Virus record (IMG/VR): IMGVR_UViG_3300021197_000410
Coordinates: 1-23,659 of that record
Length of the DNA: 23,659 bases
Reading direction: 5' to 3' (one strand)
DNA from: a virus
The notes under the pieces were generated by a model. The model saw only the letters and a program-made list of their open reading frames with translations, searched no databases and was not told the DNA's origin. A program made the translations under genes and the position numbers. Shown piece by piece: positions 6,773-14,647 of this stretch; position 1 is the stretch's first letter; each line of letters opens with the position of its first letter.

Positions 6773-9700
6773 ATGGAAGAAGAAGATACCCTCGCAAAAT
6801 ATCTCACGGCCCCTGATGAGGATAACACACCTGCTGCCTTCAACTTAGAACAGCAAGACGAAGAAGATACCCTCGCAAAATATCTTCCTACTCCTGAAGA
6901 AAAGAAAGGCCCAGCAAAACCTCAGCGGCCTGCTGTTGAGGATGCCGTACCCGACTCGCGCTTTAGCATTTCTGACTTGAAGAAAGGGCAGAACGCTAGG
7001 GATATCCGTGCCTACATGGTAGATCGCATGGGCGTTGACTTTAAGGTGGGTCAAGGGCGTAGTGACGAAGAGGTCGTAGATGCTTTCGTAAACCAGATGC
7101 GCTACTTCAACTCTAACATCGTGTCTACTGCAGGGGAAGCCCGCTTTATTGCCAATGCAGATGAGCAGACAAAAGCACGAGCAGCGCAGGCTTACAAGCT
7201 GTACGACAATCTGGGCAACCTGTTTACAGGTGATGCAGGTGAGATCTTCGACGGTATAGGTGATTACATCTACTCAGCAGCCACTGATCCATCGAACTAC
7301 GCAGGTATCCTTACCGGTGGTATGGCTAAAGCAGGTCTTCTCGGTGGTCAGCAAGCAGGTAAGGCAGCTGTTAAGGCTGCAGTACGGACTGCTATTAAAG
7401 ACGTAGGCGCAAATACTGCCTTAAAGGGTGAGGCTAAACGAGCAGCTGGCAATGTCTACAAAGATGTACTCACGAGGGCTGCTTCACAGGGGGTCCGCCT
7501 CAACAAGAAACAAAAGCAGATGGCTTACGCAGCTGCGGAGAGGGAATACGCTCTCTTCATGCAGGCCCGTAAGCGAGCACTTAGTCGTGAAGCTGTGCAG
7601 CCTATCCTTAATAAGCGACGCACCAACGCCATCCTAGCTACTGCTGGTATAGACTCTGTATTTGCGGTACTTCAGGATGCTACGCTACAGAACACGCTCA
7701 TTGATGCTGGGGCGCAGGAGACGTACAGCACACTACAGACAGGTTTTAGCTCTCTCTTAGGCGGCGTTAGTGGGATTGGAGCCTTCGTAGCGCCTAGTGG
7801 GGCGAGAAAGCTAGTTGGCGAGTCTGGGCTTAAAGATATTCGTGATCAGGCTCGTATCAAAGCCCGTCGTGACGGCAACCTAGAAGAAATGGATACGCTT
7901 CTACGTGAGGTGTCTAGAAAGCAGGAAGCGCAAAAGGCAGCTGCGGACTTCAAGTTCACACCTAAACAGGCGAAGACAGCTGGGAGTAAGATACTGGAAG
8001 TGTCCCGCAGCTGGAAGGATAAGGTTGATGCTGGTAAGGGGCGCTACAGTGGGTTCGAAACTCCCGTAGAGATTATTAGGGAAGTTTTGCTTGGCAAAGA
8101 TGGCGACGGAAAAAGCGGGTTAGTCAAGATACTAATTGACGACGGCGTAGCTGTGCCAAAGGATATGCGTATCTCTGACTTCTTCACAAACTTGATGCAG
8201 ATGCTTCCGAAAGATCAGCTCAAGCAGATAAACGAAAACATCAAGGGCTTGGGTATTACATTGGGTGATACAACACAGGTTGCTACAAGCATTGAGGATT
8301 TGTTTGCGAAAGAGTTAAGCCGAGGCGGTCAAGTTCTTCAGGTAGCATCTCAGTTCAGAAAATATCTAGATGCGGCAACTGTGTATGGGGATCGTGTGAT
8401 TAACGGTAGCATCACTACAATTAATGAGAAGGAAGCGATTGCCGAGAACATGAAGAGGGCCAGAGTTTTTGAATACGGACAAAACGTCTGGAAGCGTATG
8501 CTCGTGTCGTCCCCTGCTACTTCAGCGATTAACATAATCGGTGCAGCGCAGTACGGCATGGGCCAGTCTCTTGCTGATCTGTTTGCTTCTCCTGTACACT
8601 ATCTAGCTGCGCTGGGCTACGGCTCAGTCGGCAACAAGGCAGCTGCAGAGCAGAACTTTAGGGCTGCTAAAGTGTACGCAGGAATCACAGGGCAGCGAAT
8701 GCGTAACCTGATGGACCCCTACACGACTAAAGATGCCTACATGGCGTTCCTTGAGCAGAATAAGGATGTCAAGAAGATACTTTTTGAAACCCTGACAGGC
8801 GGCATTGAACGTAGTGGTAAGAGGTTTGGTATTGATCCTGAAGATCCGGCGTACTTACTTGTCGAGAGGACTACAGATGCAGCGTCCATGCTTACAGGTG
8901 TTCGTGCTCAGGATACCTTTACTAAGTCTCAGATGTTTATGACGGAGCTTGATAAGCATATCCGTATAAAAACCGGAAAGACGTTGCAAGAGACTTTCAA
9001 AGATGGGGCTGTAGGCAGCGTTGATAACGATGTTATCGGACGTGCTGTTGACACTACGCTGAGGTCTGTCTTTTCTAAAGACTACACAACAGATGATCAA
9101 CTTTTAGGCGGTCTTGCAAAGGGGGTTGAGAACTTTTCTAGCCTCCCGCTTGTCGGTACTATCCTGCCGTTTGGCCGCTTCATGAACAACGTGATTGCAA
9201 CAACGTACCAGTGGTCTCCTGCAGGTGCTCTTAGTGTTATGTCATCCTTGTACAAAAAAGGACGCGGCTCAAAGCAACCTGAAAATATATCAGAAGCATT
9301 TGCTCGTGCTGCAGTAGGCACTACCGCCTTAGCCCTAGCAGCGGACTTCAGTAAAGAGCAGCGCGAAAAAGGCATGGGTACGTTTGACGTAGACTTGGGT
9401 AACGGGCAGATTCTGGATGCGCGTAACACGTTTCCGTTTTCCCTATGGCTAACTGCCGGTAGAATTATTGACCTTAATCGAGAAGGGGAGATGGTCCCCC
9501 GCGAACTCGTTAAAGACTTTGCCGCACAGACTGCTGTAGGTCAGTTCGCATCAGATGTGCAGTTTGCTAATGACATATATAATATCATGGATGTTGCCTT
9601 TAACGAGGATCGTCAACTAGGAGTATCTCTTATCGGCAGTGCTTTTGCTAAACAGGGTGGTAGTATTCTTGCTGGCTTTACCCGTCCGCTAGATGCGATC

Positions 9701-10363
9701 AACAGAATGACGGGTCTTATTGCAGGCTCCGACGTAGCGAAAGATCCCCGACAGGCAGAGGGCCTACAAGCTGGCACTATTCAGGCTACGCGATACGTGG
9801 ACAACCTGATCGAAATCTTTACCGATAAGCTAGAGGGTGTTACCGGAGAAGAGCTTCGAGTAGCTACCCGTGAAGGCAAGATACAAGACCCTTCTCCTCT
9901 ACTTAGCGTTATGGGGATCAAGCTAAAGCCTAACAGGACTTCTACAGAGAAGGCCTATTCTATGGCAGAGATGCATCCTTGGACTGCAAACGAGAGGAGT
10001 GCCATACCTGCATACGACAAGATCTTTAACGAGGCCATCGCACCTGCGTTTGAGGACTCAATGATGAAACTCATTCAGTCAGAAGAGTTTAAGAAAGGCA
10101 ATGTAGCCCGGCGTCGTCAGATGTTAACCGACACAAAGAACGCATTACGCTCTGACCTACGTAAGTACCTGCTCGTATCAGGTGATGAAACAACATCGTT
10201 GATGGCTGCTCGAAAGAAGTTAATCAACAAAGGAGACAAGAACGTGCGCTATCAAGCCAAACAAATAATGCGGGAGAAATATGACATTGATGCAGACATA
10301 CGAGATTATAGTGAGAGAGAACTCCGGCTTTACGAAAGCCTGATTGATTACTTAAAACTGTAA
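6773..10363 (+). CDS. Large internal virion protein candidate (1196 aa)
   Basis: This is the largest gene in the window and the last of the rightward block, two bases after the previous stop. The N-terminus carries two copies of EEDTLAKYL (residues about 3-11 and 30-38). The rest alternates long charged helices with Gly/Ala-rich hydrophobic segments: YIYSAATDPSNYAGILTGG near 165-185, TGFSSLLGGVSGIGAFVAPSG near 325, SSPATSAINIIGAAQYGMG near 580, and PLVGTILPFGRFMNNV near 795. Such alternation is usual for giant podoviral proteins that leave the capsid and form a channel across the envelope. I see no transglycosylase motif here; the lysozyme-like segment is in the second gene instead, unlike T7 where it is in gp16. 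Its TAA abuts the stop codon of the opposing gene. Role inferred from size, order and composition. Confidence 0.65.
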   Translation: MEEEDTLAKYLTAPDEDNTPAAFNLEQQDEEDTLAKYLPTPEEKKGPAKPQRPAVEDAVPDSRFSISDLKKGQNARDIRAYMVDRMGVDFKVGQGRSDEEVVDAFVNQMRYFNSNIVSTAGEARFIANADEQTKARAAQAYKLYDNLGNLFTGDAGEIFDGIGDYIYSAATDPSNYAGILTGGMAKAGLLGGQQAGKAAVKAAVRTAIKDVGANTALKGEAKRAAGNVYKDVLTRAASQGVRLNKKQKQMAYAAAEREYALFMQARKRALSREAVQPILNKRRTNAILATAGIDSVFAVLQDATLQNTLIDAGAQETYSTLQTGFSSLLGGVSGIGAFVAPSGARKLVGESGLKDIRDQARIKARRDGNLEEMDTLLREVSRKQEAQKAAADFKFTPKQAKTAGSKILEVSRSWKDKVDAGKGRYSGFETPVEIIREVLLGKDGDGKSGLVKILIDDGVAVPKDMRISDFFTNLMQMLPKDQLKQINENIKGLGITLGDTTQVATSIEDLFAKELSRGGQVLQVASQFRKYLDAATVYGDRVINGSITTINEKEAIAENMKRARVFEYGQNVWKRMLVSSPATSAINIIGAAQYGMGQSLADLFASPVHYLAALGYGSVGNKAAAEQNFRAAKVYAGITGQRMRNLMDPYTTKDAYMAFLEQNKDVKKILFETLTGGIERSGKRFGIDPEDPAYLLVERTTDAASMLTGVRAQDTFTKSQMFMTELDKHIRIKTGKTLQETFKDGAVGSVDNDVIGRAVDTTLRSVFSKDYTTDDQLLGGLAKGVENFSSLPLVGTILPFGRFMNNVIATTYQWSPAGALSVMSSLYKKGRGSKQPENISEAFARAAVGTTALALAADFSKEQREKGMGTFDVDLGNGQILDARNTFPFSLWLTAGRIIDLNREGEMVPRELVKDFAAQTAVGQFASDVQFANDIYNIMDVAFNEDRQLGVSLIGSAFAKQGGSILAGFTRPLDAINRMTGLIAGSDVAKDPRQAEGLQAGTIQATRYVDNLIEIFTDKLEGVTGEELRVATREGKIQDPSPLLSVMGIKLKPNRTSTEKAYSMAEMHPWTANERSAIPAYDKIFNEAIAPAFEDSMMKLIQSEEFKKGNVARRRQMLTDTKNALRSDLRKYLLVSGDETTSLMAARKKLINKGDKNVRYQAKQIMREKYDIDADIRDYSERELRLYESLIDYLKL
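6779..6885 (+). repeat. Direct repeat encoding the EEDTLAKYL motif
   Basis: Two identical 26-base copies lie at 6779-6804 and 6860-6885, 81 bases (27 codons) apart and in the same frame. Each encodes EEDTLAKYL, and each is followed by a short Pro/Asp/Glu linker (TAPDED and PTPEEK). Identity over 26 bases, where codons could drift, suggests a fairly recent duplication or selection on the DNA. Confidence 0.85.
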
Positions 10364-10570
10364 TCACTTAACGCCATACTTCTCTACTGCTTCTCGCAAC
10401 CACAGAAAGCTGCTAGTCAGATGGTCTCTGGCTAGCTCTGCTTCTCTGCAATCCCACACATTACTCTTGACGAGGCTCTCTACTTCGTTGATTTTCCCGC
10501 CTAGTGTACGTACAAACGCCTTACGCTTGCGAGTGACATGTTCTTGTGCTTCTTTTTCTAGGTGGTTCAT
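10364..10570 (-). CDS. Small Acb2/Tad1-hairpin-like protein (possible anti-CBASS)
   Basis: 68 residues predicted as a helical hairpin: a first charged helix (LEKEAQEHVTRKRKAFVRTL), a second helix, then DCREAELARDHLTSSFLWLREAV at the end. The ending R-E-x2-L-A-x3-L-x5-W-x3-A (Arg42, Glu43, Leu46, Ala47, Leu51, Trp57, Ala61) is the pattern I know from the Acb2/Tad1 hairpin family. Members of that family form oligomers that trap cyclic di- and trinucleotides and so block CBASS immunity. The assignment rests on this pattern only; other small helical phage proteins could resemble it. It is the last gene of the leftward block, three bases after phoH, with AAGG in the phoH tail as a possible ribosome site. 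Its stop codon abuts the stop of the large virion gene. The gene is quite sure; the function is a hypothesis. Confidence 0.5.
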   Translation of the reverse strand: MNHLEKEAQEHVTRKRKAFVRTLGGKINEVESLVKSNVWDCREAELARDHLTSSFLWLREAVEKYGVK

Positions 10571-10573
10571 ATT

Positions 10574-11284
10574 CTAGATACCTTCTTTAACAAAGACTTT
10601 AACCCACTCTGCGCAAATATCGCTGCGCACAATGTCTTCAATACCGAACTCAACAATCGGTACATCCAGCATATGTTTCTTAGCTAGGTGAATGATCTTA
10701 GACAGGCCGTCTGCCTCCTTAAGATCTGACTGTTGTACATCCCCGTTCAATACAATCTTACTGCCTTCGCCTACACGGGTGAGCAGCATCTTCAACTCAT
10801 GCGTTGTGATGTTCTGCGTCTCGTCTACGATCACAAAGGCATTCTCAAAGCTACGCCCCCGCATTAGCGCAAGGGGTGCCATCTCGATGTTGCCATTCTT
10901 TATGCCGGTATCTACAGAACCTCGTCCCATGTGGCGCACTAGGACGTCCAACACAGGCAACGCCCACGGATACGTCTTCTCCTCAAGTGTACCGGGTAGA
11001 AATCCTATGTCCCTCCCTACAGATACGTGAGGGCGAGTGATTACGATCTTGTCGATCTGTTTAGTAGTATAAAGATCTGACGCATATGTAGCAGTTACAT
11101 ACGTCTTGCCTGTACCTGCAGGGCCAAGCACCAGTACCTGACAGCTAGCCTTCATAAAGTCCCACAGTTTTCGTTGGGATTCTGTGCGAGGAACAAAGGC
11201 TGACGTCTTCTTCAGAGACGCATTCTTGTAGTTAGTCTTACGCCGGGTACGTGTCTGCTTCTTAGGTGGTTCAAGATCGTTCAT
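10574..11284 (-). CDS. phoH: PhoH-like P-loop ATPase
   Basis: 236 residues with a Walker A motif GPAGTGKT at 54-61, the family segment [22 protein letters not shown] at 82-103, a Walker B VIVDETQN at 151-158 and a LNGDVQQSD sensor-like segment at 179-187. These are hallmarks of PhoH-like proteins, a very common auxiliary gene in marine phages. The biochemical role in phages is not settled; bacterial relatives are linked to phosphate starvation or RNA metabolism, and some are fused to nuclease domains. This one has no extra nuclease domain, only a basic N-terminal tail (about 25 residues). It overlaps the upstream HNH gene by 14 bases, so the two are likely co-translated. Confidence 0.93.
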
Positions 11285-11690
11285 CTGATAAATACTCTAT
11301 TGCTGCTTGTAGTCTGTCTATGCTGTCTTCAAAAGCGCCTAATGCTCTGTTACACTTGTGGCACAGCCACCCTCTAAAAAGTTCTGTGTTATGGTCATGA
11401 TCAACAACCCATGAGCCTGTCTTCTTACCCCCTTGACCATCTACTTCTTCAGCACTCTTACTACAGATAGGACATGTGTATTCTGCTGGGGGATACTCTT
11501 GCTCATCTCTTATCTTAGCCCTTAGTTTTTGCATATCATTAGCGCAAGACTTGCACTCTGACCTGCGATAGTTACCCCCGCTAGCAAAGCTGAAACAGCC
11601 GAGAGGTAAAAAAGTATTACACTTGCTGCACTCCTTACCTTCACCTCTTATAGATTTAACTACGTACTGTCCGAACAACTCTAGCTGCAT
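11271..11690 (-). CDS. Endonuclease VII-like HNH (His-Me finger) nuclease
   Basis: 139 residues. The C-terminal half has the recombination endonuclease VII pattern: CPIC at 73-76, [24 protein letters not shown] with Asp97-His98-Asp99-His100 as the active site, and CHKC at 110-113 completing a four-Cys zinc site. An extra N-terminal zinc-binding pair is visible (CSKC at 21-24 and CKSC at 46-49). T4 endonuclease VII resolves Holliday junctions and other branched DNA. Shorter relatives in other phages may be general nicking or packaging nucleases, or homing enzymes. It lies 7 bases after glutaredoxin and overlaps phoH, so it is a normal member of the operon and not an obvious intruder. Confidence 0.88.
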
Positions 11691-13839: not shown

Positions 13840-14153
13840 CGGTTGTCACCCTCTCCTCTAATGACACCACGTTCTGCACGATCATTAAGCTTTTTGAGGT
13901 TCATTCTTGCAATCTCTTCGAGGTTAGACCCGTACATATTAGCCACTGCTGTAACGTAGAATAGCACATCGCCTAACTCTAATTGAATAGCCTCTGTTGT
14001 TACACGGTTGTGATCACGAAATTGCTTCTTTGCTTTTTCAGCAACCTCCCCTGCCTCACCACAAAGGCCAAGAATGTTTTCTACAAAACGATCCTGTCCT
14101 TCCAAGACAACTTTACCTTCTACCCATTCACTGTACTGTTTCCAATCAAGCAT
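13836..14153 (-). CDS. mazG: MazG-like nucleotide pyrophosphohydrolase
   Basis: 105 residues, a single MazG domain. The metal-binding motif is visible as Glu33-x2-Glu36 (CGEAGEVAEKAKK) and Glu59-x2-Asp62 (QLELGDVLFYV), with the usual spacing. MazG proteins cleave nucleoside triphosphates to monophosphates. Phage MazG was first thought to act on ppGpp but later work on a cyanophage enzyme favoured dNTPs. Here it sits directly upstream of ribonucleotide reductase with a 4-base ATGA overlap, fitting nucleotide-pool cleaning or recycling. It overlaps the small gene before it by 8 bases. Confidence 0.9.
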   Translation of the reverse strand: MLDWKQYSEWVEGKVVLEGQDRFVENILGLCGEAGEVAEKAKKQFRDHNRVTTEAIQLELGDVLFYVTAVANMYGSNLEEIARMNLKKLNDRAERGVIRGEGDNR

Positions 14154-14319
14154 TGAACCGCTCCTTTACTAGTAGGTTTTTTACATGAACGTCTTCATTA
14201 TCGTAAAAGACATCCTGCACAAAGTCAAACACATCTTCTGTATGCGAATCCATATGAGAAGATAGTAAGCTGTTAGGCTCTTCTACTTCTAGTAGAAGTG
14301 TGACACTAAACTTTTTCAT
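14146..14319 (-). CDS. Small acidic protein of unknown function (57 aa)
   Basis: I do not recognise this protein. It begins MKKFSVTLLLEVEEP, then is acidic and helical (SHTEDVFDFVQDVFYDNED) and ends with a short basic strand (VHVKNLLVKERF). The start at 14319 is chosen because it gives a TGACATG junction with the gene before it and has an AAAGG site upstream. A longer reading from the ATG at 14352 would overlap that gene by 32 bases and lacks a good site. Its position between endonuclease I and MazG suggests an accessory role in DNA or nucleotide metabolism, but that is context only. Confidence 0.6.
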   Translation of the reverse strand: MKKFSVTLLLEVEEPNSLLSSHMDSHTEDVFDFVQDVFYDNEDVHVKNLLVKERFNA

Positions 14320-14320
14320 G

Positions 14321-14647
14321 TCAGGCACTGCCTTTTGTAACCGTAAATTCATCTAGAATAGCTTCACTCTTCTCTGCGTCTTCTTGAAGTCTCACAGATA
14401 GGAGGCCTTCAAGTAATCTGTCTGCTCTAGTAGACAAGGCTTCTGCAAGACCTCTGTCTTCTTGGCCTAGCTGCACTGAAGCAAGAAGCATACAGGCATG
14501 ATGTAGTAGTTCCCAAGTTACGTTTGAATCTACATCTCCCTCATTAAATACAGATGTCTCTAAGAAAGTATCTATGCCTTGAAACATGCCTTCCTCATCG
14601 TACACAGCAGACATACTAACTGAGACAGTGTGGTTTTCTACATCCAT
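14321..14647 (-). CDS. Unknown 108-residue phage protein
   Basis: The start at 14647 is chosen over an upstream in-frame ATG at 14809, because the latter would overlap endonuclease I by more than 150 bases. The chosen ATG follows the endonuclease stop by one base (TAGAATG) with GAGGAA at 14655-14660 (minus strand) as a well-placed ribosome site. The protein begins MDVENHTVSVSMSAVYDEEG, a beta-like stretch, then has helices (NVTWELLHHACMLLASVQL, and LSTRADRLLEGLLSVRLQED). It is acidic with one Cys. No family is recognised. The close spacing makes it part of the same operon as the recombination and nucleotide genes. Confidence 0.65.
   Translation of the reverse strand: MDVENHTVSVSMSAVYDEEGMFQGIDTFLETSVFNEGDVDSNVTWELLHHACMLLASVQLGQEDRGLAEALSTRADRLLEGLLSVRLQEDAEKSEAILDEFTVTKGSA

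Follow-up and report, generated by a model that had tools for sequence, protein, structure and literature searches.

A Small Protein Closing a Marine Phage Replication Operon and Its Probable Remote Kinship with the Acb2/Tad1 Hairpin

Introduction

The window analyzed here is the whole 23,659-nucleotide stretch of viral DNA, in which a leftward replication operon ends with a gene for a protein of 68 residues. An initial annotation proposed this protein as a candidate cyclic-nucleotide sponge directed against CBASS, and the locus raises the question of how far its kinship with the Acb2/Tad1 hairpin extends and whether that function comes with it. In named phage records the gene product is annotated as a hypothetical protein; no paper naming the gene, or describing it as anti-CBASS, was found in the literature searched, and the survey of HMO-2011-type phages does not use that term. 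Phages of the HMO-2011 type have been described as dominant in the ocean, with a broad distribution (PMC9038755).

The Gene and Its Operon Slot

The leftward operon is ordered as RNR, glutaredoxin, endonuclease VII, PhoH and, at its end, the 68-aa gene, which starts with ATG; the terminal position proposed at first is thus borne out. Only 3 nt separate the phoH stop (10574) from the start of the gene, which is convergent with a 1196-aa ORF (6773–10363), and a MazG is encoded upstream of RNR in the same window.

10364..10570, minus strand: gene of the 68-aa hairpin protein, stop codon included (ORF, same-slot homologues, AlphaFold2 hairpin)
10574..11284, minus strand: phoH, the upstream neighbor (PF02562, E 3.3e-62)
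10571..10600, minus strand: junction, read directly, and candidate ribosome-binding site AAGGT within the phoH 3′ end

About 40 homologous loci were found, with identities of 28–96%, including those of the Roseobacter phages CRP-207, CRP-2, and CRP-603. The close homologues (93–96% identity) lie on two viral contigs; a second group comprises CRP-207 gp38, 28% identical to the window protein, and about two dozen contigs, while a third one displays 31–40% identity to the window. The gp43 products of both CRP-2 and CRP-603 are members of the family. At nearly every locus the gene is terminal, downstream of RNR, and faces a large convergent ORF. In nine of the ten homologue pairs dN is clearly lower than dS, indicating purifying selection (dS 0.21 and dN 0.03 for the window and L002; dS 0.38 and dN 0.06 for CRP-2 and CRP-603); the window and L001 differ by too few changes for dN and dS to be judged. 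Since the homologues keep the same slot and dN is below dS, the 68-aa ORF is a real gene.

The DNA polymerase of the window shows 66–69% identity to its counterparts in CRP-603, CRP-2, and CRP-207 and 57% identity to that of the SAR116 phage HMO-2011. By this identity the phage is assigned to the HMO-2011 type, and the marine host assumed in the initial annotation fits these relatives. The operon ends of HMO-2011, CRP-1, CRP-345, and CRP-3 yielded no homologue of the hairpin gene, which is classed as accessory by its absence from these four.

A profile scan of cellular genome contigs found no cellular copy. Matches in Vibrio phages (E 0.1) were dismissed, as they cover a short stretch within a long, tape-measure-like ORF. 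Homologues of the RNR, at most 77% identical, were also seen on contigs (L145–L158) of MAGs labeled as Flavobacteriaceae, Neomarinimicrobiota, archaea, and others; these contigs probably belong to phages and ended up in the bins of cellular genomes.

Two further observations concern the operon itself. The endonuclease VII alleles of the window (11271–11690) and of L001 (1899–2300) differ, with 33% identity, while the flanking RNR, glutaredoxin, and PhoH are 99–100% identical, pointing to a cassette swap. A second 68-aa ORF (14146–14352), with no Pfam match, is located upstream of MazG and is conserved in that position in CRP-207 (56%) and in several contigs.

Predicted Structure

The AlphaFold2 model of the 68-aa protein (pLDDT 86) consists of two antiparallel helices, residues 3–37 and 41–65, in agreement with the helical hairpin predicted from the sequence. 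The comparison with Acb2 structures proposed in the initial annotation was carried out with this monomer model, and it upheld the two-helix hairpin but not the match: no Acb2 was among the PDB matches obtained with Foldseek, although the model of a bona fide Acb2 (pLDDT 92.6), used as a control, recovered 8h2x, 8h2j, and 7uq2 at E values of about 1e-4 to 1e-3. The test therefore gives an Acb2-like protomer no support at the level of the predicted model; a missing match, however, is not equivalent to a different fold. All of the 32 PDB chains reviewed for a fold match were common helical pairs. In BFVD, the best match was a 68-aa protein with a weak E value of 0.028, and several of the subsequent weak matches are annotated as Acb2/Tad1 hairpin.

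Kinship with the Acb2/Tad1 Hairpin

The pattern R-E-x2-L-A-x3-L-x5-W-x3-A, on which the first proposal was based, is exact in the window protein (R42 E43, L46 A47, L51, W57, and A61) and falls in the second helix.

10382..10456, minus strand: second helix, codons 39–63, the Acb2/Tad1-like stretch with R42, A47, L51, W57, and A61 (hhalign, shuffle control, PF24729)

The HMM search suggested at first gave a divided answer: PF24729, the Acb2/Tad1 hairpin, is the top Pfam family of the window protein (E 0.03, residues 17–62), but its score of 15 bits is below the curated cut-off of 27 bits. Nothing above cut-off was found for the window protein in Pfam, PHROGs, and NCBIfam, and members scanned individually against PF24729 reach at most 19.4 bits, none attaining the cut-off. 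Among 23 diverse members, 15 match PF24729 (best E 0.0012), which makes it the most frequent family in these scans. Twelve of the 23 also match phrog_1454 (best E 1.8e-6), as does T4 Vs.4 (E 7e-4); the window protein itself has no match to it.

A bona fide Acb2 set was obtained from viral contigs, which were searched with T4 Vs.4 and its relatives as the query alignment. Six-frame translation of all loci gave 4,504 ORFs; in this set, the Acb2 HMM placed the family immediately behind the true Acb2s (top E 0.022), and the family HMM placed SUFG_00048 and the Acb2s next after the family itself (best E 4.5e-5). These matches do not count as independent, since the Acb2s are mutually related. Reversed decoys did not exceed 8.7 bits in these searches. 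The hhalign score of the family against Acb2 is 32.9, while 600 column-shuffled Acb2 alignments, 400 of which kept the hydrophobic pattern, reach 20.0 at most. The score is still 30.3 without the window clade; that clade alone scores 21.4 versus 12.9 for the reversed alignment, the reversed alignment being the only control in this case. Alignment A3 matches the Acb2 alignment A5 over residues 40–65 with a probability of 87%.

The protein SUFG_00048 of Sulfitobacter phage phiCB2047-B (L057, 1075–1641) provides a bridge. In this protein a RyR domain is followed by a PF24729 hairpin that scores 33.4 bits (cut-off 27), and the family HMM matches this hairpin at E 5e-5. In L175 (1483–1680; 40.2 bits) the same hairpin forms a protein by itself, about 66 residues long, and it also stands alone in L176. 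Hairpins of the PF24729 kind therefore do occur without the Acb2 loop and with differing N-termini.

The possibility that the likeness to PF24729 arose by chance in an unrelated two-helix phage protein, e.g., a host-takeover or sigma-like factor, was weighed and considered very unlikely. Helical hairpins are common, every Pfam score of the family is below cut-off, and segments of sigma factors are the best PDB sequence matches of the family profile (E 0.03–0.05, not significant), the best of them at E 0.03; these matches, however, were judged to be due to chance since the Pfam scans show no sigma family, and the reciprocal ranking, the shuffles, and the above-cut-off bridge also speak against this explanation. 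The sub-threshold but consistent Pfam matches, the reciprocal HMM ranking, the shuffle control, and the bridging protein together support a remote homology to the Acb2/Tad1 hairpin domain, affecting the second helix and the loop, which is regarded as very probable. The kinship read into the hairpin pattern by the initial annotation is thus sustained, whereas a CBASS sponge function beyond kinship is not.

Ligand Residues of Acb2

In 25 Acb2s, G3, Y4, N16, K19, R59, and P64 (L110 numbering) are invariant. T4 F82 stacks on the bound dinucleotide, and T4 Y8 is the tyrosine of the IKGY loop (PMC12657218). In the alignment, the N-terminal G-Y motif of the dinucleotide pocket (T4 G7-Y8) is absent from all family members, the position of the stacking aromatic F82 is occupied by E63 in the window protein, and the C-terminal proline (T4 P84) has no counterpart in the family. 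Since this pocket is missing, a ligand is probably not bound in the way in which Acb2 binds cyclic dinucleotides.

Arg67 of the p26 Acb2 (8h2j), a trinucleotide contact, corresponds to R42 in the window clade, but elsewhere in the family its place is taken by K, G, E, or T; in T4 Vs.4, too, this position carries no arginine. The residues invariant in the family are instead E7, A8, K15, F19, W57, R59, G66, and K68; CRP-2 and CRP-603 depart from this set at K15 and R59. According to the antiparallel register of the model, these residues would sit toward the open end of the hairpin.

The first proposal, in which the protein would be a genuine Acb2 orthologue and would sequester the cyclic di- and trinucleotides of CBASS, is accordingly quite unlikely. 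The hairpin homology and the alignment of the second-helix pattern of the window, with R42, to the Acb2 segment around R67 are in its favor; the IKGY loop, the stacking aromatic, and the C-terminal proline are missing, however, the Arg67 equivalent is variable within the family, the PF24729 score is under the cut-off, and Foldseek recovers Acb2 with the control but not with the 68-aa model. The claim of a CBASS cyclic-nucleotide sponge is therefore unsupported beyond kinship, and an identity as "anti-CBASS Acb2" is not established.

A Leader Shared with Operon-Terminal MazGs

The N-terminus of the family follows the pattern M-x2-L-E-x-E-A-x2-(F/H)-V-x2-K-x3-F. A MazG protein takes the place of the hairpin at the end of the operon in HMO-2011, CRP-1, and CRP-345, and the first ~18 residues of these MazGs (MNKLEQEASNWMKERY, MNKLKEEAEQFLKEKY, and MKLEEEAKKYMENKY) resemble the family leader.

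10514..10570, minus strand: N-terminal leader, codons 1–19, in place of the IKGY loop of Acb2 (leader profile)
Window 10514–10570, L159 4387–4440, L160 from 4113, and L161 3994–4040: shared leader (leader profile)

When 6,611 Met-started segments were searched with the leader profile, the three MazG N-termini came directly below the family, with scores of 19.0, 15.6, and 13.3 versus 9.5 for the next segment. The leader looks largely specific to the operon-terminal slot because other phage MazGs align to the HMO-2011 MazG mostly from residue 18–23 onward; in the MazG of the window itself, which lies upstream of RNR, the leader is absent. A kinship with MazG over the whole protein was dismissed, the match spanning residues 1–20 only and the MazG domain being absent. 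The common leader could be the product of recombination or a docking motif. As for CRP-1 gp30, the MazG at about 4113–4493 of L160, its annotated start is probably too late, and an in-frame upstream Met restores the leader MNKLKEEAEQFLKEKYN.

The leader lends itself to an alternative, considered somewhat unlikely, in which the homologous hairpin acts only as an oligomerization or docking module: the leader (residues 1–19) would target a partner in phage nucleotide metabolism, or a protein of the operon would be regulated, and no signal would be trapped. The resemblance to the leader of operon-terminal MazGs is consistent with this proposal, as are the presence of RNR, glutaredoxin, and MazG in the operon, the fusion of the hairpin to other domains (RyR in SUFG_00048), and the fact that the most invariant residues of the family are not the ligand residues of Acb2. 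However, those residues would be close to the open hairpin end, which is also the site of the dinucleotide pocket in Acb2, so that they may represent a ligand site, and no partner is known.

Proposed Function and Significance

The explanation tentatively preferred, which is rated just short of an even chance, is that the gene product, a divergent relative of the Acb2/Tad1 hairpin that consists of a hairpin only, traps a nucleotide signal. Oligomers would form from its two antiparallel helices in the manner of Acb2 and Tad1; they may retain a nucleotide-type immune signal at the protomers or between them, and the host effector would stay inactive once the signal is trapped. While the trapping of some nucleotide signal has nearly as much in its favor as against it, an action against CBASS specifically is doubtful. 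SMODS nucleotidyltransferases occur in 3 of 192 genomes sampled from the class of a Maricaulis-labeled genome, a count that covers one CD-NTase family in genomes other than those of the actual hosts and is a weak argument against a CBASS target.

A broader reading of the trapping hypothesis, speculative and on balance improbable, considers the hairpin as an exchangeable C-terminal building block with which phages handle immune signals, placed in Acb2 with the IKGY loop, in Tad1 with a beta domain, in SUFG_00048 with RyR, in L175 alone, and here with the leader in common with MazG. The marine version would then be a distinct sponge subfamily for a signal outside the known ligands of Acb2, occupying the slot that sibling phages give to a nucleotide hydrolase. 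According to a preprint (PMC13232231), ADPR-based Thoeris signals are degraded by RyR-domain proteins of phages.

If a nucleotide signal is trapped, abundant marine phages would counter such signaling with a stripped-down hairpin, which would point to a signal or a pocket not yet known. If no signal is bound, PF24729-type hairpins must not be labeled as anti-CBASS from sequence alone.

Comparison with Known Systems

Acb2 (T4 Vs.4; PaMx33-type p26; PDB 7uq2, 8h2j, and 8h2x) resembles the family in being a small protein of phages built from two long helices in antiparallel arrangement, and the two have in the second helix the pattern R-x-x-x-(L/I)-A-(K/R)-x-x-L-x-x-x-x-(M/L)-W-x-x-x-A-(V/I) in common; the window protein also has the length of the short Acb2s (65–70 aa). 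What sets the family apart from Acb2 is the absence of the IKGY loop, of an in-register N-x2-K signature, of an aromatic at the T4 F82 position, and of the C-terminal proline; it has instead a leader like that of MazG and, at its C-terminus, (H/Y)-G-(I/V/L)-K, and it remains below the Pfam cut-off. Phrog_1454 is matched both by family members and by T4 Vs.4, with no function assigned in PHROGs.

Tad1 carries an N-terminal beta-sheet domain (PMC12043709), unlike the 68-aa protein; its C-terminal hairpin is of PF24729, a hairpin family common to Tad1 and Acb2 by Pfam definition. SUFG_00048 and L175 differ from the family in passing the PF24729 cut-off and, for SUFG_00048, in the presence of the RyR domain; they nevertheless provide the hairpin segment closest to that of the family, with YILDN......KL....MWA..SA in common with the CRP-type members.
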